A DNA stretch of 20,287 nt from a virus, in the IMG/VR virus record IMGVR_UViG_3300007513_000248, positions 1 through 20,287 of that record; one strand, given 5' to 3'. The notes beneath the pieces are model-generated. The model was not told where the DNA came from. It saw nothing but the letters and a program-made list of their open reading frames with translations, and made no database searches. Positions 1-16,686 of the stretch are shown here, piece after piece; position 1 is the stretch's first letter, and the number at the start of each line of letters is the position of its first letter. The translations under genes were made by a program, and so were the position numbers.

Positions 1-2462
1 CCCTCCCCAATCTCTATGGAGCCGTTGTCTGTTCCAACTAACCCCCACCCATCTGTAGCTGGACTAATTAAACCCTCATAGACACAAGTATATCCTTCCA
101 ACTCTCTCTCAAATTTATCCACAGAAATGTTGTTGGGGTTTTGATTGAGCAGCAGTGTCACAGGACTATTTAGACTGGCTGTATAATCTCGCTCAAACCC
201 TAAGTACCGGTGACCTATGTATAAAGGATCTCTCCTCTTAGACATGGGTAGGGTGATACCCATTGGAAATCTTGCAGTATCAGGAGATCCTTTGTTGGGA
301 GAAGCTTGTGAAGCTCCGTGGTTTCCTTTTCTCAAATCCCACTTGTTGAGTACTGCTCCTTCTGTATTCAACCCTAAAATCTCTACTGGAGGAGTGGGAA
401 ACCACTTATAGTCAGTGGTAACTGCCATTTCTCCCATTGGCATCAAAGGAACAGGAACCGCCAAAGAGACTTTTCCCATATATGGATTAACTGTCTCTAT
501 CTCTACTTCTTGTTTTGGGTTGGAGAGATACTGGAGATAGACTTTCACATCTTGTTTTGTGGCAAGGGTGTTGTCTCCCCACCCTTTCACTAATGGGCCT
601 CTCTCCGTCAGAAGATGATCTCTTGTAAATTCAGCGGAGCCAATAAAAGTAGAGGGTGTATTATGCATGAAATTCCATGCCTTGGAATACACCGTTGCAG
701 AAGAATTCACATTGAGACTATGAAAGTGAAAATTGATTACTTTATAGGCGGCTGCAAGCTCTACCTTCGCTCCAGTATAACTTCCAGCAGTCACAAAGCT
801 GGCTACACCAAAGGTTCCAATAGGAATCCCGTCTACCAAGAACACATATACATCAGCCTTCTTATTTCTCAGAACGGTGACTGTTTTTGTTCCCGTAGAC
901 CAATTCACTGCAATGGTAGAGATGCCAAGTATGTTGAGGTATTCCTGACCCCCCGTTTTCTGTAGAGCCATCTGTACTTCTATAGCTCCATCAGAAGTAG
1001 AGAAAGTGCAAAAGGTTCCGTTAATAGCAGGGTCTGTAAGAGTATTCTCAGCATTGAAAGTAAAATCTACACGGTAAGTGCTGTTCGGGGCTGTCAACTT
1101 GCCGCTGGTGTCCTCAAATTGCCACCCGTAAGGGTTTCCAGCCTCTTTAGAGAGGGATAGGAAAGTGCTGGAATAGGACGTTCCTGTTCCTAATTCTGAG
1201 CCTGTAAATGAGGTGCTTGCAGAAGGGAGATATGACCCATCATATTCTATTGCAGTAGCATCAGAAATCAGAGAAGTGTAATTAAGAGAAGTCATTCCCT
1301 TAACAGCTAACTTCACTTTCTTGAAGTCATTTCCATAACGAGGAACCCCGTAATGCGTAGCAGTAGTAACTGTGATTGGTATTGGATAGCTTGGTGTAGA
1401 ATTGAAGCTATAAGAAGTAGGGTTTTCAACACCATTGGGAAATTCACTTTCTGACAGAACATCTTGTGAAAACTGAACCAGAAGCGTATTTCCAGATGTT
1501 GGAGATACAGTATACGAAGGCTGAGAGCCTTTTGTGAGAAGTTGAATTTCATTAGACTGAATTCCATAACTCTCATCCACATCAACAGGGATAACAATCT
1601 CATTTCCAGAAACATCTGTAATAGGATTGGTTATCCGTATTTTGTAGAAGCCACCCAACATTGTTCCAGTATGGGTGATAATCACACTGAGAACACCACC
1701 AGAATAATCTCCAGAGCCAGCATTGAAGGTGTCTCTGCTTCCTACTCTCACTGATACTGTATCGCTTGCTCCACCTGTTACTGCTGTAATTTCATAAGTA
1801 GACACTTGAAGGAGGTGGGGGTTTTCTTCATCCATAGCTTCTGAGAAGAATATCTCAATCTCAAAACCATTGAGAGAAGTGGCACTTGCCAGAGTGGGGA
1901 GGGTTAATTCTGTGGAACCGTAGTGCCAAAGACCATAGGGGTCACCACCATAACCACCGCTTATCGCAAAAGTGACAGCAGGGAATTGACCGTTTCCATA
2001 AGGGTCTTCACCATGTGGAGATTCCCCATAACCACCAACAATCTGTTCAGGGATTTTACCAAGCAGCCCATTCCCATAAGCAAAATGACCAAAGAAACTA
2101 CCCCCATACCCCTCAGAAATGCTTTCTGGTTGGTGTGAATAGGGTGGGGATACAGAGGATGGGGTTGGGAAAGCCCATACACCATAAGGGTTGTTTCCGT
2201 ATTGCTGACGCCCGTATCCTTGATTAACGAAGTTGCTGAGTTTGGGTTCTTCAGCACTCCAATCTACACCACCGTATGCTCGTAACCCATATGCAGATCC
2301 TGAACGGACTTCTTGGGAATAATGCACACCTCCGTATCCAGCAGCCTGTGGGTGTGCTGGAGGAACAAAGAGAGCAACGAAGTCATGTTCAAAAGGGCCG
2401 AAGCCATAAACGGAACCTTCAAAGCTCTCCGAAGGGTCAAAATAATTAGGAGGATAGGGCAA
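1..2462 (-). CDS. Large Ig-like/lectin-like virion adhesin, TTG start, 3' end beyond the left edge
   Basis: This frame is open for 820 codons from a TTG at 2460-2462 to the window edge, so the C-terminus is missing. An AGGTGA Shine-Dalgarno lies just upstream and an in-frame TGA at 2472-2474 closes the frame behind it. Residues 1-182 are rich in Gly, Tyr and Pro, with repeated GYGG and (N/D)PYG motifs. Residues 186-300 look like a bacterial Ig-like domain of the SbsA/Big_5 type, ending in the characteristic DVSGNEI. Residues 305-425 look like a second, more divergent copy. Residues 430-610 resemble a concanavalin/LamG-like jelly roll (VDGIPIGTF at 543-551). Residues 610-820 contain a phage-like tract with LGLNTEGAVLN (696-706) and HRYLGFERDYTASLNSP (751-767). 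It follows the giant fibre gene in the same frame. The likely role is host binding or surface decoration, inferred from fold-like patterns and position. No enzymatic motif is visible. Confidence 0.86.
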   Translation of the reverse strand, partial: MPYPPNYFDPSESFEGSVYGFGPFEHDFVALFVPPAHPQAAGYGGVHYSQEVRSGSAYGLRAYGGVDWSAEEPKLSNFVNQGYGRQQYGNNPYGVWAFPTPSSVSPPYSHQPESISEGYGGSFFGHFAYGNGLLGKIPEQIVGGYGESPHGEDPYGNGQFPAVTFAISGGYGGDPYGLWHYGSTELTLPTLASATSLNGFEIEIFFSEAMDEENPHLLQVSTYEITAVTGGASDTVSVRVGSRDTFNAGSGDYSGGVLSVIITHTGTMLGGFYKIRITNPITDVSGNEIVIPVDVDESYGIQSNEIQLLTKGSQPSYTVSPTSGNTLLVQFSQDVLSESEFPNGVENPTSYSFNSTPSYPIPITVTTATHYGVPRYGNDFKKVKLAVKGMTSLNYTSLISDATAIEYDGSYLPSASTSFTGSELGTGTSYSSTFLSLSKEAGNPYGWQFEDTSGKLTAPNSTYRVDFTFNAENTLTDPAINGTFCTFSTSDGAIEVQMALQKTGGQEYLNILGISTIAVNWSTGTKTVTVLRNKKADVYVFLVDGIPIGTFGVASFVTAGSYTGAKVELAAAYKVINFHFHSLNVNSSATVYSKAWNFMHNTPSTFIGSAEFTRDHLLTERGPLVKGWGDNTLATKQDVKVYLQYLSNPKQEVEIETVNPYMGKVSLAVPVPLMPMGEMAVTTDYKWFPTPPVEILGLNTEGAVLNKWDLRKGNHGASQASPNKGSPDTARFPMGITLPMSKRRDPLYIGHRYLGFERDYTASLNSPVTLLLNQNPNNISVDKFERELEGYTCVYEGLISPATDGWGLVGTDNGSIEIGE
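1917..2339 (-). repeat. Degenerate Gly-Tyr-rich coding repeats
   Basis: Residues 42-182 of the left-edge protein carry irregular short repeats built on GYG and PYG: GYGG (42-45), AYGG (62-65), NPYG (91-94), GYGG (118-121), DPYG (153-156), GGYGGDPYG (169-177). In DNA on the coding strand the recurrent unit is close to CC(T/C)TATGG. The spacing is uneven, so this is a low-complexity aromatic/glycine segment and not a strict tandem repeat. It probably forms a flexible linker or a self-associating arm before the first Ig-like domain. That role is inferred. Confidence 0.7.
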
Positions 2463-2474
2463 ACGGTCACCTCA
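2463..2474 (-). promoter_or_regulatory. Ribosome binding site and tandem stops that set the TTG start
   Basis: On the coding strand the junction reads TAATGAGGTGACCGTTG. TAA ends the 2326-residue gene, TGA follows directly in the same frame, GAGGTG is a good Shine-Dalgarno, and TTG starts the next gene about six bases after GAGG. An ATG overlapping the TAA would stop after two codons (ATG AGG TGA), so it cannot be the functional start. The GTG inside the Shine-Dalgarno opens a different frame that closes after 68 codons. Confidence 0.75.
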
Positions 2475-5400
2475 TTAACTTTCTTGCTTGAATTTAGCTG
2501 TCACCCTACCAACCATATGAGGGATTCGGTCATTTGTTCTTCCAGATGGGAAAGCAATATTTATAGTCACTCGCAAAGTATCTCCAGCGTTGGGAACGGT
2601 TGCCAAACTACTAAGATCAAGATCCGCATTTGAATTTTCAAAAAGATAGTTGTTAATGGTTCCTACATTCACACCAGCATTTATTGTCGTAGCCGTATTA
2701 GCTTTAGCTTCCTGTCCAATTAGCACTCCATCAGCGGTGTTGTGAAGGCTCAGAGTGATGGTGGGTCTGTCTGAAGCATCTATATCTACAATAGATCCCA
2801 TGATGTCATCACATTGTCCGTAATACCAGATTTTCACTTCAAACAGTGCATTTGTACCACCAAAATCACCACCCATCTTATTAGCTGGATACGGAATAGC
2901 TATCTCAGTGTAGTAATTTAAATCTGAGGTAATCGCTTGCGCTTGGGTGTTTGTAAGGAACCAACCAACCATTTCTTCAGAAGAAGATGTGTCGGATTTA
3001 AGTGTTGGGGTATAAAGGTGTCTGCTGTTTCCAATACTTTGAACAAAATCCACCTCGTTTGTTGAAGGGTTAATATCATCTGGATAAGCTATGTCTCTCC
3101 CCTTTCTTACAACAACAAGCTCTCTGGCATCAATAATCTGAGATTTCTTAGAAGCCGTGTATTGATGGTGTAGGGTTGAGGTTAATGGTGATCCAGTTTC
3201 AGTGGCTGAGATAGTAGATGGTTCTTTCGCACCAATTACCCAAGCAGCCCCATCCCAAACATTAGTAGTAGTGCTGGCATCTACACCAATCTTGATAGCT
3301 TTAGCAAAAGTAGTTTTCCCAGCAGAAATAACCAACGAGGCTGTAGAAGTACCATTAATAAGGGTCTTAATAAAACATTGGGAATCCTCTTGACCATTTG
3401 AAGCATCTGTCAACTGGAAATTAAAGAAGCCCAATCCCTTATTGTTAAATTCGTATTTGGTTTCTATCCCCCCACCCTTATCAGGGGCAGCTTCTGTCTC
3501 ATGTTCGATCTGGAGAATTCTACAAATCTCAGAACCGTTAGTAGCGGTACTATCAGAATTCCCCTGCACTTTAAATGTAGTCTTATTTGTAGCAGCGGCA
3601 GCCTGTATCGTTGCAGTCTGTTCCTCAGAAAACTGAAGTAAAATACCGTTAACACCATCGTCTAAATTTGAAAGCTGGAATGACCCGTTGTTCATTCGGA
3701 GCATTCCATATGCGGTTGGTATGGCTGGATCATTACCAAAAATAACAAGACCATTGGCTCTTGTTGTTCCGTTCGGAAAAGTTGAATCGAAAGGTGTAAT
3801 GTCTCCAGAAGTGATTTTTATGATATTGCTTCCAGTAGCCTTTCCAAAGATAAACTGGTCTTCTTGCCAGAGATTTCCATAAACCCCCTGCAAACCTAAA
3901 TTATGTCTTGCTCCTCTTGCCGTTTCTTCAGTATCAATATGTAATACCGCTTTCCATCCGAAAGGTTGGAGAGTATACGAGATGCCTCCACCAGCATCAT
4001 TTTCCATCGCAGTACCAGAGACAGCAATATCGTAGGTTGCTGTGGGGTTAATGGCTTGAAGAAGAACGTCATAGTATGGTTGATTCGGCCCAGTATTTGT
4101 AGTCTCAACACTACTACTGTAATTGGTGATTAGACCCAACAATGTATTGATAGCACCAGCTAAAGCCACCTTAGTAGTAGTAATAGTTGCAACATCAATA
4201 TTCGCTGATGCTACCGTGGGTGATACAACACTCCAAGTATTGTCTGTGGCTCCATTGCTATTAAGATTAATGGTATAGGTGGCAGATTGAATTCCAGCCC
4301 CGTTACCATTATCAACTTTAAGAATCAATTCTTGTGGTAGGCTGGCAATCGCTGGAACCCCTTCAACCATCAGAGTAGCAGCAGAGAGATCCTTACCTTG
4401 GTGGTCTATTCTAAAGACACCATACTGATCTCTACCAACTCTCCACTCATCTTCATTGGCTCCAACACCAGAATTCGTAAGCTCTAAATAGGAAGCCATA
4501 TTTGAATTGGAACTGTCAACCGTGAGGGTCTTATTGGCACTATCAAACAAAAACTCTGCCTGTCCAACAACATTTCCAGCACCATCAAAGACACCTACTT
4601 GTTGGGCTGACCCACTACCAGAAAGGTTTCCACTACCTGTCAAACCATTCCAAATCCCACTATGCTTCACCTTTATTGCATTAACAGTAGTATCAAAAAC
4701 GAGCGCACCATCTCTGTACTCAGTAGCAGTTGGAAGGGAGGCTGTTGGATAGGAATTCAGGGCAAGAGGTGTTTCAAATCTGACTTGTGCTGCTTGAGTA
4801 CTGGAGGTATCCTTAAAGAAGGAGAACATAGTTGTCCAACCCGGATTATCACCATAATCAAAATCTACCTGACTCTCCAGATTAGCAATGTCTGTGAAGT
4901 TGCTAATCTGTCTCATTATATAGACAGCCCCGTCAGTAGCCTCACCTCTCCAAACAACCCCCGTTCCATGTCCAGTTGTGAGGTTTGCCTTTGTTTCAGC
5001 ATAGGTGGATGCGAAATGGTGGGAAGATTTACCATAAGAATTCGACCCCTCCATTACATGGAATCCTCTTTCACTACCTCCACTGTCAGCAAAGTGAAGA
5101 CCTTTATCCTTGGTTCCACCTTGGTCTGATTGCACAAATATAGTTTGAACAGTGGAAGCAACCTCTCCAAATGTCTGAGTAGCAGTGTTAGGAACGAGGT
5201 TCGTACTGTTCTCTGACCAGTTAGTCAGACCGCCACTACCACCCATAGCAGACCAGTTACCACCATCCCACACCTTCACTTCGTTAGTAGTGCTGTCATA
5301 GGCGATTGTGCCAGCTAAGATCGTTCCTGATGAGGGCAAGCTGCCTGTAGCATAGTTTTTCAAGAGAAGGGGAACTTCAAACCTAACTTGAGCGATTTTG

Positions 5401-8400
5401 GAATTCGCAGTGTCTGCAAACAAAGAGAACATTGTTTGCGGTGTAGCACTGTTGTTTTGATAAAGATCAAAATCAATAGTAGACTCAAGATTGGCTGCAT
5501 TGATGAGATCCCCTTTAATTCTAAACATCGCCAAAGCTGCATTGTTAGTATCCACCCCAGCTATATTTAAGGTAATGCTTTGACCCGAACCAGCGACATT
5601 AGCTAAAGTATCATCATACTGTCCAAGAAATTGAAGGGTCTTATCGTATGGGGTTATTCCATGAGCATAAGCATGGAGAATCCCAACAGGTACAGGAGTA
5701 CCAGAAGGGTCTTCAGTGAAATTAATTCCACCAATCAGCCCAGAGTCCACTCCTTGAACTTGTAAAAATCGAACAGGTTTTGTTGTTGTTCCCAAATCTT
5801 GACCAACAGCATCAGGAACCAAATTAGTACTAATCACTGACCAGTCTGCGAGAGCTACAGCATTGGCATCCACATAGGCTTTGACACTCTCTGAAGTAGA
5901 CAAAGTATCAGCAGAAGCCGAAGACATAGTATCATCATCAATAATTCCTGTAATAACAACACTTGCAGAAACACCAACCTTCAAAGATGTTCCAACATGA
6001 ACCACTCCAGAAGCGTGATCTATGGTAATCCCTTTAGCGAGATCAGAAGCATTAGCCATAGTGAACATGTCTGTACTGTTGTCATAATGAACAGTAAACA
6101 TAAACGTGGCGAGGTCATAAAAATCTATGGCTGCTTTTTCACTTGTTCCAGCCTTAATAGCCATTTTAGAATGAGAAGCATTGTAAATCTCAAACTGGTG
6201 AGTGGCTACCCCACTACCACCGCCCATAACACCTTGTAGCTTACCAGTATTATCAATCTGCCAGTACAACGTATTGTCAGTCATAAAGTCTATGGTATCA
6301 GCAGTCTGCGCTATAACTTTTGTGGTTTGAGCAGCGTTCTCAATTCTATCTCCAGAAGAAGCCAAACCAGAAGAAGTAGCAATCAAGACAGGAGTAGCAT
6401 CACTTTCTGCTTTGTAATACAGACCATTGTCTGTCAAAGAAGCAGATCCATCACTAACAAACAAGGCTCCCTGATTAGCAGCAGTCGGAACATTAGCATT
6501 CGTATATGCCACTTCATCAAAGATCATTCCCTTGGGATCGATAAGGCCGGGTACTGTGAGCTTTCCAGTTACAGCATCATAGATCATCGGCATTGTGCCA
6601 GCAGCAGCACCTCCGATTGTGATTTCTTGTGTGTTGGAACAGTGAAGGTTCACAAACTCTGGAGCAGTACCAGCTACATACACAGCACCACTGGAAACTT
6701 TGAATTCTCCAAGATTAAGATTGAGGTCGTTAGCTACAGCAGGTGATGTGGGTTCATCTGAAACATAAACAACGTCAGCCAATTCTCCCTTGGCAGTGGT
6801 TGTTACAACCACCTTTCCAGAGGTTTCTGAGAATACCAGAAGACCAACTCCTCTCAATACTCCTTCAGTACCATTATGAGCAGTATTGAGAGCAGAGAGT
6901 AAGAGAGACATATTAGCGTAGCCAGTCAGCAACTCAATGACTACCTCTCCCATCGGAGTAGCAAAAGTGATATTCCCAGCACAAGTCGTTGGAAGTGTTG
7001 CTGCTGCATTTGCTGTCAGTGTGGCAGCAGTCATAGCAAGGGGGTTGACCAGTCTCATCCAACCATAAGGTTCATCAGCACCAGCAGCAGTAGAGGCTCC
7101 CGGAATAACGAAAATCGTACCTGCTGGACAATTAATTCCACTACTCTGTGTAGCAGGTAGATATGAACCACCCTGAAGGAAGACATCACCAGAATGAGGC
7201 CCCGCAGTGGCTCCATCTGTTTCTAAAGTATCACCACCTTGAATAATGACCCAACCAACACTACCATTACTGGTTGTTGTTGAAGATTGAGTTTGAAGTC
7301 TAAGATTATAGCTATGAGAAGAGTCTCTTGAATTCCCTTGAATGATACCAGCAGGGAGAGAACGTCTGTCTGCATTAGCAGCAATATCAGAAGGCCAAAC
7401 CGTATGACCAAGATTTAATCTTGGCCCCATTGCGAGATAATTGGGATCAAGCTCTATTTCAGGAGCAGAAATTCCACCAACCTCAATACTTCCTTCAATT
7501 TGTAAGTGTCCGTGTCTTGGATCATTTGCACCAAATTTATCAACACCAGCACCAGAAAGGTTAGGAAGGGCTGGTGTAGAAGAGGCTTGGATAACCACAG
7601 GCCCCGCATCAGCAGAGATTTTTCTACCAGCACCAGAACCAGCTACAGGAGGGTTTACCGAAGTGAAACCATCATAGGCAACATCAAGAGAGCCGTAAGC
7701 ATTAAAGGCTCCTTGAGTAGTAGCAAAGAAAGCCAGATCATCAATCGCATCCTGAACATCCTCTGCACCCAATTGGTTTGCAAGGGGGATAGCAACGACC
7801 CCACCACTGAAAGGATCAGGATAATTGTTCTGATAGTGAATACTCTTGGCTTGGGTGTGTGTGGCAAAAATGTTGGGCTTTGTACCAGCAAATACATAAC
7901 CCGGCGCTGCTGCACCAGAAGTAGGATCTCCATATTTACAAGAGGAAACATCCAAAACAGTATTTGCTAAAACCATTCCTGTAGTGTCGAAGTGAATGGG
8001 TGCAATACCAAAATCAGAGAAGGAAAGATAGACTTTCACATCACCAGCTTTTGCTAATGAACCACCCTCTCCAATGTGAAGAGTGCGACCTACAAAGGAA
8101 GAAGTGACTTCAGACCAACGAATTCTGGTTGTTGAAGCGTTTGTGAGAATACCATATCCATTAGAACCATTCTTTCCAGCGACAACAGATCTATCAACCA
8201 GAAGGTCAAAAGTCTCCGCTACAACATTAGCAATAATCGGATTGGCTTTGATAGCACTATCTCCAAAGACAGTACTGCCAATGATAAAAAGCTTTCCACA
8301 ATAGCAGTTAGCAGTAATCGCTGTCTGACCAGCCGTGGAAAGTGAATTGTAGACATAGGAATCTATGATGTAGGTTTCAGCCGTAAAGGTAGTGCTGCTG

Positions 8401-9455
8401 ACAGGATCTGAGACTGCAAAGATAGCAGAAGTGCCTGATCCAGCCGTGTGTAATACCGCACAGTCAATGAGGTACATTTTCCCACGTTTATGGGTAATCG
8501 TTGGTTGGGTAGAGGCTCCATCATCGGTTTCAAACTGAATTCCCATACAGACGAGAAGGTCTGCATTAGCACCAGCATCAAATAGATGACCTGCATTTGA
8601 TTTTGTTCTCGCAACAACACCTTTTGTCTGTGCTGTAGGAGATGGGTTAATGAGATCAGCAGCTACAATGTGAATATGAGGCTCAAATACAAGGCTCTCT
8701 TCGTACAGTCCATTCCTCACCAAAATCACATAAGGTTGATCTGCTGATGGTGCTGGCTCCCCACGGGTTGCTGCCGTATTCGCATATGCGATAGCATCTT
8801 GAATTTTGAAAAAGTCAGCGAAGCCTTCTGCATAAGTAGTCACCCCACTCGTTGCTAAAGAAGCGGAGTCGGGGCCGGGCATAGAGACTAAATTTGTAGT
8901 GTGATCATTTGGAGCTTGAGAAGCATCGTAAGATTTTCGCCCCCTGTTCGCATCAACATAGAGAACACGACCACTGGTGCTAACCCTTCTCACATAAGCC
9001 AGAAGTCTTTGGAGGTTTTGGTTCTGGTTGTCAGCCCAACCAACGATATCTATGTCAACAGGAATGGAACCAACCGTATCTTTTCGTTCACCAGCAGCAG
9101 GGAGTTTAAGATCACCAAAACGGGTTTGACTACGAACCCGTAAAAAAACCGTATCCTCATTGGATGTGCCTAAATCTGTGATCAAACGAACAAGGTAGGA
9201 GCCTTCGTGATCTACATTAAATTTACACCAATACTGAGTAGATCCCGGCGGACTAATTAAAGCTGCTGATGATGCTACGGCACTTGGACTGTCTGGAGTG
9301 AAAACGATTGTCCAATTGTAAGTAGAAATACCTGATGTGCTTGCCACCTCACACTTGATTTCATCACCCTTACGGGCAGTTTCTACACTTTGATTTGTTG
9401 GATGGGATGTTGGGGTTCCATTATGGGTGACCGTAATACTAAAATTGGCTGACAT
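2475..9455 (-). CDS. Giant modular tail fibre/spike protein with Ig-like, beta-helix and repeated fibre modules
   Basis: A 2326-residue protein started by ATG behind a GGAGAG Shine-Dalgarno seven bases away. Residues 1-105 look like an Ig/PKD-type beta sandwich. Residues about 205-510 look like a pectate-lyase-type right-handed beta-helix: PYVILVRNGLYEESLVF near 240, followed by irregular hydrophobic coils. AEDVQDAIDDLAFF near 564 and TSESVKAYVD near 1187 are motifs common in phage fibres. Residues 1205-1412 and 1413-1610 are a divergent tandem duplication, and a weaker related stretch lies near 1975-2065. Short closing motifs such as AYDSTTNEVKVWDGGNW recur. The C-terminal 250 residues are beta-rich. 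I see no Ser/Lys autoprotease of the intramolecular-chaperone type and no convincing catalytic residues. It follows the baseplate genes, fitting a trimeric fibre or spike for host binding. A polysaccharide-degrading beta-helix is possible but not shown. Confidence 0.88.
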   Translation of the reverse strand: MSANFSITVTHNGTPTSHPTNQSVETARKGDEIKCEVASTSGISTYNWTIVFTPDSPSAVASSAALISPPGSTQYWCKFNVDHEGSYLVRLITDLGTSNEDTVFLRVRSQTRFGDLKLPAAGERKDTVGSIPVDIDIVGWADNQNQNLQRLLAYVRRVSTSGRVLYVDANRGRKSYDASQAPNDHTTNLVSMPGPDSASLATSGVTTYAEGFADFFKIQDAIAYANTAATRGEPAPSADQPYVILVRNGLYEESLVFEPHIHIVAADLINPSPTAQTKGVVARTKSNAGHLFDAGANADLLVCMGIQFETDDGASTQPTITHKRGKMYLIDCAVLHTAGSGTSAIFAVSDPVSSTTFTAETYIIDSYVYNSLSTAGQTAITANCYCGKLFIIGSTVFGDSAIKANPIIANVVAETFDLLVDRSVVAGKNGSNGYGILTNASTTRIRWSEVTSSFVGRTLHIGEGGSLAKAGDVKVYLSFSDFGIAPIHFDTTGMVLANTVLDVSSCKYGDPTSGAAAPGYVFAGTKPNIFATHTQAKSIHYQNNYPDPFSGGVVAIPLANQLGAEDVQDAIDDLAFFATTQGAFNAYGSLDVAYDGFTSVNPPVAGSGAGRKISADAGPVVIQASSTPALPNLSGAGVDKFGANDPRHGHLQIEGSIEVGGISAPEIELDPNYLAMGPRLNLGHTVWPSDIAANADRRSLPAGIIQGNSRDSSHSYNLRLQTQSSTTTSNGSVGWVIIQGGDTLETDGATAGPHSGDVFLQGGSYLPATQSSGINCPAGTIFVIPGASTAAGADEPYGWMRLVNPLAMTAATLTANAAATLPTTCAGNITFATPMGEVVIELLTGYANMSLLLSALNTAHNGTEGVLRGVGLLVFSETSGKVVVTTTAKGELADVVYVSDEPTSPAVANDLNLNLGEFKVSSGAVYVAGTAPEFVNLHCSNTQEITIGGAAAGTMPMIYDAVTGKLTVPGLIDPKGMIFDEVAYTNANVPTAANQGALFVSDGSASLTDNGLYYKAESDATPVLIATSSGLASSGDRIENAAQTTKVIAQTADTIDFMTDNTLYWQIDNTGKLQGVMGGGSGVATHQFEIYNASHSKMAIKAGTSEKAAIDFYDLATFMFTVHYDNSTDMFTMANASDLAKGITIDHASGVVHVGTSLKVGVSASVVITGIIDDDTMSSASADTLSTSESVKAYVDANAVALADWSVISTNLVPDAVGQDLGTTTKPVRFLQVQGVDSGLIGGINFTEDPSGTPVPVGILHAYAHGITPYDKTLQFLGQYDDTLANVAGSGQSITLNIAGVDTNNAALAMFRIKGDLINAANLESTIDFDLYQNNSATPQTMFSLFADTANSKIAQVRFEVPLLLKNYATGSLPSSGTILAGTIAYDSTTNEVKVWDGGNWSAMGGSGGLTNWSENSTNLVPNTATQTFGEVASTVQTIFVQSDQGGTKDKGLHFADSGGSERGFHVMEGSNSYGKSSHHFASTYAETKANLTTGHGTGVVWRGEATDGAVYIMRQISNFTDIANLESQVDFDYGDNPGWTTMFSFFKDTSSTQAAQVRFETPLALNSYPTASLPTATEYRDGALVFDTTVNAIKVKHSGIWNGLTGSGNLSGSGSAQQVGVFDGAGNVVGQAEFLFDSANKTLTVDSSNSNMASYLELTNSGVGANEDEWRVGRDQYGVFRIDHQGKDLSAATLMVEGVPAIASLPQELILKVDNGNGAGIQSATYTINLNSNGATDNTWSVVSPTVASANIDVATITTTKVALAGAINTLLGLITNYSSSVETTNTGPNQPYYDVLLQAINPTATYDIAVSGTAMENDAGGGISYTLQPFGWKAVLHIDTEETARGARHNLGLQGVYGNLWQEDQFIFGKATGSNIIKITSGDITPFDSTFPNGTTRANGLVIFGNDPAIPTAYGMLRMNNGSFQLSNLDDGVNGILLQFSEEQTATIQAAAATNKTTFKVQGNSDSTATNGSEICRILQIEHETEAAPDKGGGIETKYEFNNKGLGFFNFQLTDASNGQEDSQCFIKTLINGTSTASLVISAGKTTFAKAIKIGVDASTTTNVWDGAAWVIGAKEPSTISATETGSPLTSTLHHQYTASKKSQIIDARELVVVRKGRDIAYPDDINPSTNEVDFVQSIGNSRHLYTPTLKSDTSSSEEMVGWFLTNTQAQAITSDLNYYTEIAIPYPANKMGGDFGGTNALFEVKIWYYGQCDDIMGSIVDIDASDRPTITLSLHNTADGVLIGQEAKANTATTINAGVNVGTINNYLFENSNADLDLSSLATVPNAGDTLRVTINIAFPSGRTNDRIPHMVGRVTAKFKQES
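4626..5843 (-). repeat. Two-copy tandem duplication (~200 residues each) inside the giant fibre protein
   Basis: Copy A spans residues 1205-1412 (5220-5843) and copy B residues 1413-1610 (4626-5219). Both begin with WS(V/E)xSTNLVP, reach an ANLES..DFD motif 117 and 112 residues later, then TMFS(L/F)F.DT and AQVRFE.PL.L..Y.T.SLP, and end with a D(S/T)T.N..KV...G.W closing hairpin 196 and 189 residues after the opening Trp. The matching order and spacing show duplication of a whole structural module. Divergence at many positions says it is old. Confidence 0.85.
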
Positions 9456-9496: not shown

Positions 9497-11008
9497 TCAT
9501 AGATAAAATAGGGAAGAAACATCCTCTCCAATCCTATCTTTTGGTGTCCTTACTCCCAACCTATCTACCGTAAGACGGTATGATTGTGCTGTTGCTGTTC
9601 CTTTCATCCTTTGATCTAAACGAATAGTAGAAAGTCCTAATTTCACTTTGGTAGATGACCCCGAAGTGAAACCAACCCTTCCACCATTAGATTCCAATAG
9701 GAACTCCATTCGATAATTTCCTTTATTTTGACCATCTATAATGGTCAGGATCGTGCCTTCTCCACAAGAAGAGAAGTCTTGATCAAGGTCTTTTATAGTG
9801 TTTCCATTGAGAACCGTTAATTTCCCACTCAATCCATTAGAGGTTGTATAGGATCGTGGAGTGTTATCTGCTCCCAAAGGAAAGCAAAGAATATCCTTGA
9901 CCCTGTAGGTTCCCTTGTTCACACCACTCAGAATTTCTAAGGAAGCACCTATTGGTACGCTCTGAAAGTTTTTTGAAGTGTCTGTAAACAAAGATCTATC
10001 TGTAAGGGTAGCTCCGTACCCTGTTATTTCTTTTGCCCCACTACAAAATTTGCGAAAATCCTCATAATAAGAGAGGTCATAGTCCATAGATAAGACATCT
10101 GTAAAAACTTGCTGATAGACCTCTCTGAATAAATGTCTGAATTCATAGAGCGTGTGGGCTGGTTTCAGAATCTGCATCACCAGCGGTAAATTATTGAAAA
10201 TCTTTTGGATATTCTCTGAGAATTCTGAAACAAGATGATGAGTATGCCCTCCGTCCTCAGAAGCTAAAACCTTGAATTGATATATTTCATGGGTGTGGGT
10301 TTCACCCTCTCCATCAAGACTGATAGTCTTCCCATTACCATCACTATCCATTCGTATCGTATGATAATGATCTTCATCTGAAGAGGTGGTTTTCACATTC
10401 AAAAGGGAAACTTCAAATTCAAACTGATCTGCAAGTCTGTAAGCTGAATTAGGTGTCCTCTTCATCTCCATAGATTTCTCTATGATCTGAATATCCCCTT
10501 CAGTCAAGAGCCTAATCCCTTCTTTAACTGTAGAAAGTCTTGAACCATTTAGAAGAAGAACAATCATCTTCTTCAGAAATGTTCTGTGTTCTATGTCGCT
10601 GTCCAACTTGAATGTGAAATCACGATAATGAGGATTGACCAGCCCACCAAGGATCTGGTAGAGAAATTCTGGTCTTGTGAAATCAAAATCACTGTCTGAA
10701 TAGACCTCTTGTGCTACTACCTGTATCTTAGCTATTTGCTCGGCTGCACTTTGAAGTTGCAAGGTATAGAAAGGCCCCTTCACCTGAGAGATATAATTGC
10801 TTGGTAGCAAAGACATCAAGACTTCCAGTATTCTCTCAGTCTGAATCCTAACTCCCCTGTACCACTCCTGACCTGTCTCCTCTATAGGAGAGGGGTTTAT
10901 GGCTACGCTGTTGGGAAAGGTCTTCTCAGAGCCTTCTACATAGTCTGTTTCTGGAAGCTTTGATCCTTCACTATTATATGGAACAAAAGGGTCTTTCTTT
11001 ATCGACAT
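9497..11008 (-). CDS. Baseplate-associated protein following J (gpI-like position) with three HxH motifs
   Basis: A 503-residue protein whose ATG lies two bases after the stop of the J gene. GGGGGA inside the end of J acts as the ribosome binding site. Residues 50-180 are helical, with LLPSNYISQVKGPFYTLQLQ (67-86), RPEFLYQILGGLV (112-124) and FLKKMIVLLLNGSR (144-157). A Gly/Asp-rich insert at about 208-262 carries HYH (214-216), HTH (238-240) and HTHH (255-258), a plausible metal-binding beta-hairpin. Residues 265-320 are again helical. The C-terminal third holds two ungapped 35-residue repeats (340-374 and 404-438) sharing G.NKG.YR. Its place after J matches gpI/wedge-periphery proteins of contractile phages, but the sequence does not let me name a family. 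It probably joins the baseplate to the fibres encoded next. The gap to the fibre gene is 41 bases. Confidence 0.82.
   Translation of the reverse strand: MSIKKDPFVPYNSEGSKLPETDYVEGSEKTFPNSVAINPSPIEETGQEWYRGVRIQTERILEVLMSLLPSNYISQVKGPFYTLQLQSAAEQIAKIQVVAQEVYSDSDFDFTRPEFLYQILGGLVNPHYRDFTFKLDSDIEHRTFLKKMIVLLLNGSRLSTVKEGIRLLTEGDIQIIEKSMEMKRTPNSAYRLADQFEFEVSLLNVKTTSSDEDHYHTIRMDSDGNGKTISLDGEGETHTHEIYQFKVLASEDGGHTHHLVSEFSENIQKIFNNLPLVMQILKPAHTLYEFRHLFREVYQQVFTDVLSMDYDLSYYEDFRKFCSGAKEITGYGATLTDRSLFTDTSKNFQSVPIGASLEILSGVNKGTYRVKDILCFPLGADNTPRSYTTSNGLSGKLTVLNGNTIKDLDQDFSSCGEGTILTIIDGQNKGNYRMEFLLESNGGRVGFTSGSSTKVKLGLSTIRLDQRMKGTATAQSYRLTVDRLGVRTPKDRIGEDVSSLFYL
9695..9991 (-). repeat. Two 35-residue beta repeats in the post-J baseplate protein
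   Basis: Residues 340-374 (9887-9991) and 404-438 (9695-9799) align without gaps, with 13 of 35 identical positions by hand count. Shared positions include Asp, Phe, Gly-x-x-Leu-x-Ile and the strongest stretch G.NKG.YR. Each probably forms a small beta-hairpin module of the kind that recurs in tail and fibre proteins. The 64-residue offset leaves a 29-residue linker between them. Confidence 0.65.
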
Positions 11009-11010
11009 TC

Positions 11011-14000
11011 TTAGTATCCCCCACTGGAGGAATATGAAGTACCTGCTGACAGACGATTGGAAACACTGTCAGAATCGTATAAAAATTCAAAGGTTCCCGG
11101 AATTAGATACTCAATCGGCCCAGTTTCAATACTGGAAACACCTTCACTTCTACCTACAAAATAAGTCACATCGTAAGTATATGAAGTTGGAATTTCTTCA
11201 TAGGACATCGTGACCAAAACCCTGTTGGCTGTCATACTAACAGCAAGATCGTTTATTTCATTCTCTGTCTTTGAAGGATAAAGAGCCTGTAGTGTCTCCT
11301 GATCTGAGTATCCTTGGATAGACATCCCTTCATATCCTATGATGAAAGCCCTTCCCGATTTCTCTACAAAAGGAAGCCCCTCACTATTAGGAATATCTAC
11401 AATTATTTCTAACGGAGTGGTTCCTTGATACACGGCTCTGAATTCATTTACTGATCCACCACCTGTTAAGGTATCTGAGTTTAGGGGGTCTTTGATGAGA
11501 TATGTGCAGACCTCATTTGTAGACCAAGCATCTATTTTCACAATGTCAGCATCTTCACTGGCATCTATAGCTTCTCTTACAACATAGGATTCTTCTGTTC
11601 TACTCACCTTTGTAAGAGGAACCACCACATAAGAAACACCAGTGGTATTATCTATCACTTCAATAATATCAGATTGTCTAAGGGGTGTTCCGAAAGATAG
11701 AGAATTAAAGAGGTTGTATAATCTTCCTCTGAGTAATCGATCCACTACGGACATTTCAGCCCCTTGTGAAAGAATGACCGTTGCAGAAATATCTACAATA
11801 TTCCTAACAGCCTCTTTCACAACAACATCGGCTGTTAAATGCTTCATATTGTTAATGCTGTTCTGAGCCACACTCAACATAGAATTCACCGAATACGTCA
11901 CAGTGTAATTCTCATCATGCTTATAGGAAGCTATAACCACAGATCCTGACGGAATAGCACTGTTTTCGGTTCTCTGAATACCAAGAGGGGTATTATCATC
12001 TCCTTCAATAACTCTATAATCAGGAAAAGAAGAAGTAGGTGAAGCGTACTCCGTACCCTCAGAATCTGTGATAACTATCGTCAAAGGGTTAATCCCTAAA
12101 TACCGAAGATAATCAACAGTATTTCCAACCAAGATATGTTCTTCATCAGTAACAGTTGTGACTGAACCAAGATCCTTCTCTGTACTTATTTGTATGTGGT
12201 CAGCAGCTAAGGTTGAGTACCCCATTTCCAGAATAGATTGTTTGCGGTATAGGGCATATTCGGTATCGGTAAGAACCACATTACTTCCAGAAACGTCAAT
12301 CAAAGAAAGTACTGGCTGTCTGGACATTGTGAAAGCATTGCTGGTGCGGTAGCGGTAATCTCCCATGACGACATCTGTTAAATCAAGATCAGCAGGGTCA
12401 TTATATTGACTGGAAAGCTGAATTCTATTGTAAGAAAGAATGGTCAGCCCTGTTAAAACGAAATTCGTACCTTCACTGTGGTTTCGGATACCATAAGGAG
12501 GAACCTCATCAGGCAAATCTAAAACTTCTATCAAGGGATTGTCCAGCGTAAGATTTTGATCTTGGATTTCAAAAATAAGATCCTGCGGATCACCAACCAC
12601 TTCAAATTGAACATCCCTCTTTGTTTCAAAAGAAAAGGCAAAATTGTCTGTAACGATTGAATCTTGCGACCCCCGTATATAAACATCAACCTTCCCACCT
12701 TTGTGTTGTTGAAGGGTGTTGTCATAATCTCTCTTCATCAGGCTCTCTCCAGAACCAACAATCTTACTTTCAGCCACACCAGCCAAACCTGAAACCAACT
12801 GCCGATAGCCTTGAAGGGTTCCTGTATCTACAGAGGAAAGGGTGTGCTGCGCCCTTACAGCCAATTCTCTATTACTCTCTTGATCTCTACCTCCAAAGAA
12901 AGTCTCTTTATTCCTCACAAGTACGTTCAAACCCGTAACAGTAGTGATTTTCCCCACCGAAACATTTCCAACAAGCCCAGAAGAATTGCAGATAGCAAAT
13001 GTCGTAACCTCATACCACCCCGTAGAAGGGTCGTAGTGTGAGATCAAATTCCGTAATGAAATTTCAGTATAGGCTGTCGTTCTAAAGGAGAGGCTTCCAG
13101 CAGAAATTGTCGTACCAAGAGGGATACTATGCGTTGTTGTTGGTTTTGAAGTTACATAGAAGGTGACTTGACCTCTGGAGGGAGTGCCACCTCTTCTATA
13201 AACCCCAACATTAGAAGCCAGTTTTTCAAAAGCAGCATCTATAAGATTCTGCGCTTTCATTGAATTTTTGAGGTAAAAAGACTGAGCTAAAGCCTGTTTG
13301 TATGGTGAAGAGGCTGGTGAGATTGAAAACCCTGAATTTGTAGGATCATCAATCTCTAATAGAGTGCTGAAAGACTGTGTACGAGAAAGGAAATCAATAA
13401 GAAATCGTAACCTCACGCTCTCAGCAGACATTGGATCTATAAAAGTATCTCTTAATACCGCACCGGGCTGAACAGCTATGTTTTCATTGGCTCTGTGAAT
13501 GGAGGTAACAATTTCCCTAACTACCTGTCTTCTGGAAACAGTGGGCAATGAGGCAGTATTCAAAGAAAGCTGTATCGGATATCCAACAACCTCTAAAGAA
13601 TACGGACTTTCAAACTCCACACCAGAAATCGTATTGTAATAAACCGCAGTTACTACATAATATAAAGGTCTATCCAAAGGAGTAGAAGAGAACTCATTAT
13701 CAGGTACTGTAGAAGGAGTTGAATTTATGCTCCCAAGCCTATTGTGAGTGAAAGAGTATCGGTTTTTCTTGGCAATGCTCTCTACTGTAATCGAAGTCCT
13801 AAATTGTGTGGTCGCTTCATTAACCGCCATTCTCTCGTTAAATTCAACAGATACGGTATCTCCTTTAGTGTCTTCCTGATACCCAAAAACCCGAAAGTAA
13901 AGGGGGTCTACAGTAAGATCTCCATTAGCATCCACAGATGGAGTAGAGTCTACTGCCAGTTGTCCAATTATGGTAGTATCCTCAATCACTTTATCAACAT

Positions 14001-14517
14001 CTCCTATGGGAGATGGATTAAGGAGTTTATACCCTATTGATCCACCACCCTCTGAAGTAGCTGCGTAGTAATTCATACCAAGGAACTGTCTTTCATAGGA
14101 ATTGGAAGCAGCTATCTCTGCGGAAAGTCTCACAAGTCCAGTTAATCTTTCTACCCTTACTCCAACAGGAATCCCCGACACAGCAGGTAGCTCTTCACTC
14201 TGCAATAGAGTGACCCTAATTAATGCTTCCTCCGTGACTGAACCATCTGTTAGGATAGACCTAACCTTTATTATGTTTTCCCCTATCATTAAAAGGTATC
14301 CATCTGGATACTTAGAGGGGCTTGGTATTGAAAAAGTCTCCCCTTCAAATGTGATTAGGTCTGGATTATCTTCAAAATCCCTCCCCAAAACAGAAATCTG
14401 TAAGTAGGCAGTGTTAGGATCTATTTTGCCTTGAAAAAACCTACTTTCTATAGATGTGGAAAAGCTAAACTCCTCTCTATACTTCCCATCTGGACATAAA
14501 AAACTTGGTGATATCAT
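11011..14517 (-). CDS. Baseplate J-like (T4 gp6-like) wedge protein with large N- and C-terminal extensions
   Basis: A 1168-residue protein. The J core is clear: YRRGGTPSRGQVTFYV near 436-451, then IPLGTTISAGSLSFRTTA, FFGGRDQESNRELAVRAQ near 537-555 and the following GYRQLVSGLAGV, KVDVYIRG near 612, and the C-terminal part DVVVKEAVRNIVDISATVIL near 890-910 with FGTPLRQSDIIEVI. Residues about 20-110 resemble an Ig-like domain and 115-330 an FnIII-like beta region. About 180 residues follow the J core and end in SSSGGY. T4 gp6 is about 660 residues, so this protein is nearly twice that size. J proteins dimerise between neighbouring wedges to form the inner ring of the baseplate. The gap from the gp25-like gene is 11 bases with only a weak GAAG-type ribosome site, so translational coupling is likely. 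Confidence 0.93.
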   Translation of the reverse strand: MISPSFLCPDGKYREEFSFSTSIESRFFQGKIDPNTAYLQISVLGRDFEDNPDLITFEGETFSIPSPSKYPDGYLLMIGENIIKVRSILTDGSVTEEALIRVTLLQSEELPAVSGIPVGVRVERLTGLVRLSAEIAASNSYERQFLGMNYYAATSEGGGSIGYKLLNPSPIGDVDKVIEDTTIIGQLAVDSTPSVDANGDLTVDPLYFRVFGYQEDTKGDTVSVEFNERMAVNEATTQFRTSITVESIAKKNRYSFTHNRLGSINSTPSTVPDNEFSSTPLDRPLYYVVTAVYYNTISGVEFESPYSLEVVGYPIQLSLNTASLPTVSRRQVVREIVTSIHRANENIAVQPGAVLRDTFIDPMSAESVRLRFLIDFLSRTQSFSTLLEIDDPTNSGFSISPASSPYKQALAQSFYLKNSMKAQNLIDAAFEKLASNVGVYRRGGTPSRGQVTFYVTSKPTTTHSIPLGTTISAGSLSFRTTAYTEISLRNLISHYDPSTGWYEVTTFAICNSSGLVGNVSVGKITTVTGLNVLVRNKETFFGGRDQESNRELAVRAQHTLSSVDTGTLQGYRQLVSGLAGVAESKIVGSGESLMKRDYDNTLQQHKGGKVDVYIRGSQDSIVTDNFAFSFETKRDVQFEVVGDPQDLIFEIQDQNLTLDNPLIEVLDLPDEVPPYGIRNHSEGTNFVLTGLTILSYNRIQLSSQYNDPADLDLTDVVMGDYRYRTSNAFTMSRQPVLSLIDVSGSNVVLTDTEYALYRKQSILEMGYSTLAADHIQISTEKDLGSVTTVTDEEHILVGNTVDYLRYLGINPLTIVITDSEGTEYASPTSSFPDYRVIEGDDNTPLGIQRTENSAIPSGSVVIASYKHDENYTVTYSVNSMLSVAQNSINNMKHLTADVVVKEAVRNIVDISATVILSQGAEMSVVDRLLRGRLYNLFNSLSFGTPLRQSDIIEVIDNTTGVSYVVVPLTKVSRTEESYVVREAIDASEDADIVKIDAWSTNEVCTYLIKDPLNSDTLTGGGSVNEFRAVYQGTTPLEIIVDIPNSEGLPFVEKSGRAFIIGYEGMSIQGYSDQETLQALYPSKTENEINDLAVSMTANRVLVTMSYEEIPTSYTYDVTYFVGRSEGVSSIETGPIEYLIPGTFEFLYDSDSVSNRLSAGTSYSSSGGY

Positions 14518-14528
14518 ATCTTCAAACC

Positions 14529-15653
14529 CTAATAAGTATTATTGTTGGATACCAACTGTGCTGATCCCATTCTTGCTATGACTTTACCGTCTTGTAAGAT
14601 ACTACTCACAGTACTTGGGTTGCTATATAGTACTGTTACTTGCAGTCTCTGAGAACTGGCACTTTGAACTACCACATCAATAAGGAAAGTTGTTGGGTCT
14701 GTTGGGGAGGGGATTGTCTCAACGCTTAATATCCTGTAAAGCCTTTCTTTTAGAGTGAGCTTTTGATATTTCCCACTCATAGTCTGATACTCCTGTATCT
14801 GAGACAAAGCTCTCCTTACTTCAGCAGAGACTGCTGAAGAGACTGCTCCAAGAGCCTTTCTTCCAACCTTCTGCCTAAGACTTGTGCCATATCCTTTATA
14901 GAAAAGATTGGAGCCTCTATCTGTGAGCAAGATTTTCAAGCAACTTTGGTAGAGAAGATTCTCATTGTCTACAAATAAAAGCCCCCCATTAGGCCCGAAT
15001 CTAAAGTCATTTTCTATTTCATTTGCTTGACACCTGCGGCATTGGTTTGGGTGTGTAAAATAAGAGAGCCTGAAAGAATGGTTGCTCTTTACGGTTTGTG
15101 AAAACTGTATCCCTCTTGTGAAAAAATATGTTTCTTCTTGATTAAGGCTCCATGAGGGGAAAACTTTTTTTCCTCTCGCCCCTGCCTGTAGGTCAAAGCC
15201 AATATGTGGAGCAGCTTTGCCCAAGACCTGAATAATAGAACTTGAGCCATGTGTTGCAAGATCAGTCAGAGACAAAAATCCGTTGTTATTTTCAACCAAA
15301 AGACTTGTAGCCCTTTTCCGTATTTCTTTGACCAGATCCTTAATTGACAAGCGGTTTTGAAAAGAAGAAGTTTTCAGCGTTAGCTCTATGTGATCTTCCG
15401 TAGAGGAAATTATAAGAGTGTTTTCATATTTGGGAATAAAGAAGGGGCCAGCAATTCTGGATTTTATAGAAGCAGGGGTGTAAAGACCTCCTGACGGAAT
15501 AACCATATCGTTTGCATAGAGGATTGTTCCTCTGGTTGGGCTGCTAAAGATAGGCTGTCTGGTTGAGATAGTCCTACCATCCCCACTCAAAGTAACTGCT
15601 TCTTCAATAGTTTGGTGGGGGCAGGAAAAAGCTAATTGGATATCAAAAGACAT
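14529..15653 (-). CDS. Baseplate wedge protein with C-terminal gp25-like domain, N-terminal extension and CxxC motif
   Basis: A 374-residue protein ending in TAG. Residues about 228-345 match the gp25/gpW-type wedge pattern: NENLLYQSCLKILLTDRGSN (230-249), YKGYGTSLRQKVG (252-264), and a helix VSAEVRRALSQIQEYQ (275-290) before a terminal beta region. T4 gp25 is about 130 residues; here some 225 extra residues precede it. Residues 40-160 look beta-rich, with the recurring phage structural pattern FLSLTDLATHGSSSIIQVLG (126-145). HPNQCRRC (201-208) contains Cys205 and Cys208, and CPH lies at 11-13; these could form a zinc site, which is inference. It sits directly before J, as gp25-like genes do in many contractile phages. 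The 52-base leader holds an inverted repeat covering its ribosome site, so its translation may be controlled. Confidence 0.82.
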   Translation of the reverse strand: MSFDIQLAFSCPHQTIEEAVTLSGDGRTISTRQPIFSSPTRGTILYANDMVIPSGGLYTPASIKSRIAGPFFIPKYENTLIISSTEDHIELTLKTSSFQNRLSIKDLVKEIRKRATSLLVENNNGFLSLTDLATHGSSSIIQVLGKAAPHIGFDLQAGARGKKVFPSWSLNQEETYFFTRGIQFSQTVKSNHSFRLSYFTHPNQCRRCQANEIENDFRFGPNGGLLFVDNENLLYQSCLKILLTDRGSNLFYKGYGTSLRQKVGRKALGAVSSAVSAEVRRALSQIQEYQTMSGKYQKLTLKERLYRILSVETIPSPTDPTTFLIDVVVQSASSQRLQVTVLYSNPSTVSSILQDGKVIARMGSAQLVSNNNTY

Positions 15654-15705: not shown

Positions 15706-16686
15706 TCAAAACATCATACTCAAAGCACCTTCAGTCTTATCATCTTTATATGCCCAAACCTCATTGATAACGAACCTCGGCATAGAAAGTACTGGCTGAT
15801 TCTCTTCGTCTGTATGAAAGAATGTCCTATCGTAGTCATAAACAAGAGACTGAACACGGCTTTTTAAGAAATATTTTGCTGAAGGATCAAAAATAGCATC
15901 TTCTTCTCCACCCAATTCACTTTCATCAAAACTACCAGACAACCAAAAGGGCAAGAGAGCAGACACAGCACCCCCAAAGGCTTTGGTTAAAGTTTCAATT
16001 TCTTGTTCTAATTGTTCAGAGAGGTCACAAAGCTTAATGATCTTATGTTCCAAAAGGTGTAGTTTTTCCGCAATTTCCTGATTTGCCCAACCTCGTAGCT
16101 TATGCATGGCATCTGCCATAATAGTGTGTTCTTTGTTCCAGACTAAACGAGGCTGACCTGTTTTGTCCACCAATCTTGCAGGTTGGTACTTTTTCACATT
16201 CAACATCCCACCAGCATCAGAACCCCAATCCAATTCTTCAATAGTCTCTTCTGTCTTACTAATATTAGATTCGTGACGGGAAGAATTCGGGTGAACTCTG
16301 GAAACAGGAGCTATTAGCCCCCCATAGGGATATTTCTCCACCTCTTTTATCTCCCCATCTCCTATTACTTCAATGGCTTTGGTTTCATTGGGGTGCATAA
16401 ACATAGAGATATCATATGGGTTCCCCCCAACCATTATGTAAGCCATTACAAGACCTTCTAAGGAAGAACCTTCGGTAACAGAGAAATTCAACCTTTTCTC
16501 TGTTCTATATTTTCCAGTATCGGTTTCGATAGCCTCATAGGTCACAGTAATGTATCCAATCCTATCCCTCTCTACTTGTATGCTTTTAATCCTGTGTGGA
16601 ATATTCACGGCTTCTCTTAGAAGCCACTCTCGTATTCCAAGCCAATAGCCCGTTCTAAAACGAGTAAAACCACCAAAACTACCCAT
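15706..16686 (-). CDS. Uncharacterised virion structural protein, 326 residues
   Basis: ATG start three bases after the stop of the 952-residue gene, with GGGGTGAG as ribosome site. I do not recognise the family. Residues 1-30 are aromatic and basic (FGGFTRFRTGYWLGIREWLL). Residues 33-70 look like beta strands. MVGGNPYDISMFMHP (85-99) is a distinctive loop. A proline/glycine-rich middle (118-185) leads to a helical stretch at about 186-240 (HKLRGWANQEIAEKLHLLEH onward) with coiled-coil character. The last 60 residues are acidic to mixed and end in EGALSMMF. No signal peptide or transmembrane helix is visible. Its place between a large structural gene and the gp25-like wedge suggests a tail or baseplate part, inferred from context alone. 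Confidence 0.8.
   Translation of the reverse strand: MGSFGGFTRFRTGYWLGIREWLLREAVNIPHRIKSIQVERDRIGYITVTYEAIETDTGKYRTEKRLNFSVTEGSSLEGLVMAYIMVGGNPYDISMFMHPNETKAIEVIGDGEIKEVEKYPYGGLIAPVSRVHPNSSRHESNISKTEETIEELDWGSDAGGMLNVKKYQPARLVDKTGQPRLVWNKEHTIMADAMHKLRGWANQEIAEKLHLLEHKIIKLCDLSEQLEQEIETLTKAFGGAVSALLPFWLSGSFDESELGGEEDAIFDPSAKYFLKSRVQSLVYDYDRTFFHTDEENQPVLSMPRFVINEVWAYKDDKTEGALSMMF

Follow-up and report, generated by a model that had tools for sequence, protein, structure and literature searches.

A putative baseplate lectin-like protein of huge phages and its separate and fused gene forms

What is encoded at the left edge of the viral DNA analyzed here, and what could its product do on a phage particle? 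The window, which is 20,287 bases long and forms one complete IMG/VR virus record, opens with a 2.46-kb stretch (1 to 2462) in which the list of open reading frames on both strands gives only short frames, apart from one uninterrupted frame of 820 codons on the minus strand (3..2462). This frame starts with TTG, has no ATG near its 5' end, and is open at the left contig edge, all as the initial annotation had described it. When this stretch was simulated 2,000 times with a first-order Markov model that keeps its dinucleotide makeup, the longest stop-free run reached 215 codons (mean, 97), which rules out a chance open frame. Leftward extension, proposed with that annotation as a check, is provided by the sister contig L002 (IMGVR_UViG_3300008952_000052; 59,885 bp), which has 99% mean column identity to the window over the aligned stretch. 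No early stop is found there; the frame continues to a protein of 1,892 amino acids with a TAA stop ending at L002:15679, so that the window holds codons 1 to 820 of 1,892. The "phage C-terminal patterns" initially read within the window are untenable as worded because the true C terminus lies 1,072 codons beyond it.

TTG is a normal start codon in translation table 11, and its use here can be judged from the relatives of the gene. Twenty aligned long-form proteins, that of the window included, share a leader of the form DPSEC..SPFGFGPFP....PPHPxGxGYGGVGW and the same starting point, with ATG (14 proteins), TTG (4; the window gene, L019, L032, and L100), or GTG (2; L038 and L089) as the start codon. 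Because the long-form homologues begin at the same point, usually with ATG, the TTG is, as judged from this comparison, the true start of the baseplate lectin-like protein gene. A ribosome-binding site, GAGGTGA (2467..2473, minus strand), which was compared with those of the other genes in the window, ends 4 nucleotides before the TTG, and residues 1 to 190 show a coding-type composition resembling that of the neighboring genes (codon-position GC of 62/50/35%). A start at an internal ATG near residue 210, with the upstream part being noncoding or belonging to another gene, would suit a frame without an ATG near its 5' end, but the leader and Tyr-Gly repeats conserved among the long-form proteins refute it and, together with the good ribosome-binding site and the base composition, leave it with practically no likelihood.

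The surroundings of the gene are those of a contractile tail. On the minus strand, the cluster begins with a 952-amino-acid protein (16690..19548), probably tail hub or tape-measure related on the basis of synteny and a weak match to phrog_4200 (E = 0.011), and a 326-amino-acid conserved baseplate-cluster protein placed by synteny (15706..16686). These are followed by a sheath-initiator (gp25/gpW)-like protein (14529..15653), which matches PF10934 just under the Pfam cutoff (E = 1e-6) and the baseplate protein phrog_2669 (E = 4e-5), and by a Baseplate_J/baseplate wedge protein (11011..14517; PF04865, E = 7e-19; phrog_6, E = 2e-25). Directly after Baseplate_J, in the position of P2 gpI, lies a 503-amino-acid baseplate protein (9497..11008), and then a 2,326-amino-acid protein that is fiber-like by position (2475..9455), for which neither a profile match above noise nor a relative among the annotated phages was found. 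The lectin-like gene closes this conserved cluster, shortly after the genes of the baseplate wedge, and the order is kept across the retrieved loci. Beyond it, L002 encodes proteins of 211 (phrog_5417; E = 2e-22), 1,155, and 1,224 amino acids. The 59.9-kb sister contig also carries, outside the structural cluster, a DUF5131 gene (L008:8237-9004, plus strand; phrog_2045, E = 1e-82).

The initial annotation had recognized Ig-like and jelly-roll patterns in the frame and pointed to Pfam Big_5/SbsA and LamG profiles as a means of checking them. Searches with the full protein and with 35 homologous segments gave no match to either set of curated profiles, Big_5/SbsA or LamG/concanavalin; Pfam, PHROG, and NCBIfam models likewise gave no match to the full 1,892-amino-acid protein or its homologues, and PDB sequence-profile searches returned chance-level matches only. 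Despite this failed profile test, both readings are upheld by predicted structure and Foldseek comparison. The AlphaFold2 model of residues 170 to 640, built on an alignment of 35 homologues, is nearly all beta and has a mean pLDDT of 89.7 and a pTM of 0.84.

From its N terminus, the protein is accordingly mapped as follows, with all coordinates on the minus strand. Residues 1 to 189 (1896..2462) form a Tyr-Gly repeat region with 14 YG and, after the leader of the DPSE..FGFGPF type, five GYG units. Two Ig-like domains follow at residues 190 to 301 (1560..1895; pLDDT mostly above 90) and 302 to 414 (1221..1559), and their profiles are similar to each other. The S-layer proteins SbsC (4uic) and SbsB (4aq1) are among the top Foldseek matches of this Ig-like region, with overall TM-scores kept low by the comparison of all three domains as one chain. 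Residues 415 to 609 (636..1220) are predicted to fold as a jelly roll of the concanavalin/LamG type, with Foldseek matches to legume lectins (TM-score on target, 0.46 to 0.56; E = 5e-5 to 2e-4) and to other folds of the concanavalin type. A conserved body then begins, marked by the motif RGPLVKGWGDxTxATKQDV...; its residues 616 to 820 lie in the window (3..617), closely following the site where relatives are joined to the 503-amino-acid protein. The model of residues 605 to 1785 is of only moderate confidence, with a pLDDT of 74.9 and a pTM of 0.59, with values under 50 for about the last 100 modeled residues. Because its Foldseek matches are LamG, galectin, and phage LamG-type proteins, the body probably consists of several further lectin-type sandwiches; profile-profile similarity among the jelly-roll segments themselves is weak.

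Comparison of 55 distinct loci or phage contigs reveals two main architectures. In 19 of them, including the 485-kb phage LR745208, the body is fused in frame to the 503-amino-acid protein, and neither the Tyr-Gly/Ig/lectin segment nor the 2,326-amino-acid gene is detected in any of these 19. The remaining 36 encode the body separately. Of these, 34 (all except L007 and L034) have a relative of the 2,326-amino-acid protein, and the lectin segment is detected in 35; relatives of the 2,326-amino-acid protein occur only alongside this separate form. The one locus of the separate form without Ig and lectin domains, L059, has other frames in front of the body. Its contig presents a third arrangement (L068:11336-18202), in which the body is separate from the 503-amino-acid protein and is preceded by frames of 858 amino acids, partly matching the 2,326-amino-acid protein, and 369 amino acids. 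From this co-occurrence, the Tyr-Gly/Ig/lectin arm and the 2,326-amino-acid protein appear to form, for the most part, a single optional outer module. The possibility that phages of the fused form carry the Ig/lectin part at another place was also considered and rejected, as its profile matched only a short junction piece in seven whole fused-form records, one of them the 485-kb LR745208. An assembly error as the origin of the fusion is unlikely because 19 distinct loci show it, and one phage shows it in several records (L030, L062, and LR745208).

Fused and separate forms are interspersed in the phylogeny: the tree of the 503-amino-acid protein rejects a single fused clade, and this tree and that of the body each require at least five changes of form on well-supported branches. 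The closest pair, L091 (fused) and L072 (separate), comes from one metagenome (3300035698) and illustrates such a change. The flanks share 83.0% nucleotide identity on one side (7,137 aligned columns) and 78.5% on the other (4,286 columns), and between them a clean block of 4,444 bp in L072 (11337-15780) stands against 32 bp in L091 (7123-7154). In this pair, the junction falls at the end of the 503-amino-acid protein, 10 to 15 residues before the RGPLVKGWGD motif. It is possible that this block is a recombining adhesion module. A wider generalization could also be speculated, although we rate it as distinctly doubtful: the baseplate of huge phages would have an adhesion module that can be switched. 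At one in-frame junction, a multikilobase block of fiber-like gene and Ig/lectin arm would come and go repeatedly and so change the baseplate between fused and armed states, possibly through active or selected recombination that alters host range.

Known systems place this family in context. The uncultured huge phage LR745208.1 (485 kb) holds an unannotated homologue (L003:18438-23729) with 31% identity in the body (about 1,190 aligned columns) and with the same place, between Baseplate_J and the phrog_5417 protein; it differs in being fused to the homologue of the 503-amino-acid protein and in lacking the Tyr-Gly, Ig, and lectin N terminus and the 2,326-amino-acid gene. The same gene as in this phage is present on L062 (MIBM01000077.1), a scaffold binned in a Spirochaetes metagenome-assembled genome; it is probably a phage contig within the bin, which gives a weak hint at a Spirochaetes host.

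In Bacillus phage G (JN638751), the gene next to the Baseplate_J gene gp188 encodes gp189, an unannotated protein of 1,109 amino acids (L142:9998-13327). Its N terminus is related to the 503-amino-acid protein (hhalign, 98%), and, as in the fused form, gp189 is longer than that protein; in contrast to the fused form, the match is confined to about residues 4 to 183, and the remainder has no detected relation to the body. The homology of the gp189 N terminus to the 503-amino-acid baseplate protein suggests a role for gp189 in the baseplate. The order sheath initiator/W, J, next baseplate gene, and fiber is also similar to that of the P2 operon V-W-J-I-H-G, where gpI is a tail protein and gpH is the tail fiber. 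The loci differ from P2 in having a body of jelly rolls, with no fiber chaperone identified next to it. Equating the 503-amino-acid protein with P2 gpI was rejected, as it gave no sequence-profile match (hhalign probability, 0.1%) and no Pfam match. LamG/concanavalin-like structural proteins of phages, such as M4SJZ4 of Synechococcus phage Syn30, share the fold type of the body in Foldseek, with a sequence identity of about 9%.

When these results are placed together, we consider it likely that the product of the gene, 1,892 amino acids long, is a structural protein at the baseplate surface of a huge phage with a contractile tail, where it binds host glycans and carries an optional outer module; its place in the virion, the glycan binding, and the role in host range are what we infer here. 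As the body is either fused to a baseplate protein or encoded beside it, it most likely sits on that protein, and several lectin-type domains on the baseplate exterior would most likely bind cell-surface glycans. It can be hypothesized that the conserved body (residues ~616 to 1620) docks beside the 503-amino-acid protein where the baseplate wedge ends, while the string of lectin-type jelly rolls and the N-terminal Tyr-Gly/Ig/lectin arm bind host surface glycans during adsorption, with the 2,326-amino-acid fiber-like protein probably joining in. In relatives, the outer module, comprising the 2,326-amino-acid gene and the Tyr-Gly/Ig/lectin segment, comes or goes as a single block at a constant junction, and the body is accordingly free or joined to the 503-amino-acid protein.

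The main competing explanation, which we hold to be somewhat unlikely, is that the protein forms a purely structural baseplate periphery, with its jelly rolls and Ig domains serving as spacers and docking surfaces and with the true receptor binder being the 2,326-amino-acid protein or one of the downstream 1,155- and 1,224-amino-acid proteins. Jelly rolls and Ig folds do often serve as plain structural spacers in phage virions, and phages of the fused form are common although they do without the lectin/Ig part altogether. The lectin part is, moreover, only modestly more variable than the body: among close pairs, its identity falls below that of the body in three (66 versus 78%, 67 versus 74%, and 42 versus 59%) but hardly in a fourth (75 versus 76%). 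This excess is below what would be expected of a receptor-binding tip, and it only mildly favors a receptor-binding role. Adhesion is the better fit for several lectin-type domains in tandem and for an outer module that is lost and gained together with a fiber-like gene, and there is a precedent in Gp119 of the Bacillus myophage Vp4, a wedge protein of the baseplate that has a carbohydrate-binding fold and was shown to bind cells (PMC11406892). Gp119 resembles the protein described here in combining a wedge position with sugar-binding-type domains and differs in that its domains are others and Vp4 is a Herelleviridae phage. That the protein is not a binder but a tailspike bearing an enzyme of the sialidase, glycanase, or esterase type is very improbable: sialidases, GH43 enzymes, and a phage esterase are among the top Foldseek matches, but the large glycosidases do not superpose as a whole because the rmsd is about 20 Å or more, and the models contain beta sandwiches only, with no catalytic family match. 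For the glycan-binding baseplate protein preferred here, "adhesin-like," the term of the initial annotation, is the best inference as to role.

Lectin-type baseplate and tail proteins are already known; of the family, its domain map, and the repeated switching between fused and armed forms we found no description in the open-access literature. Most structural genes of huge phages lack annotation. The present analysis assigns to the baseplate cluster an unnamed family, seen in about 55 distinct phage contigs, and provides it with a domain map and a fusion partner. Close phage relatives with and without the outer lectin/fiber module constitute a natural experiment, and the role of this module in host choice therefore becomes testable.
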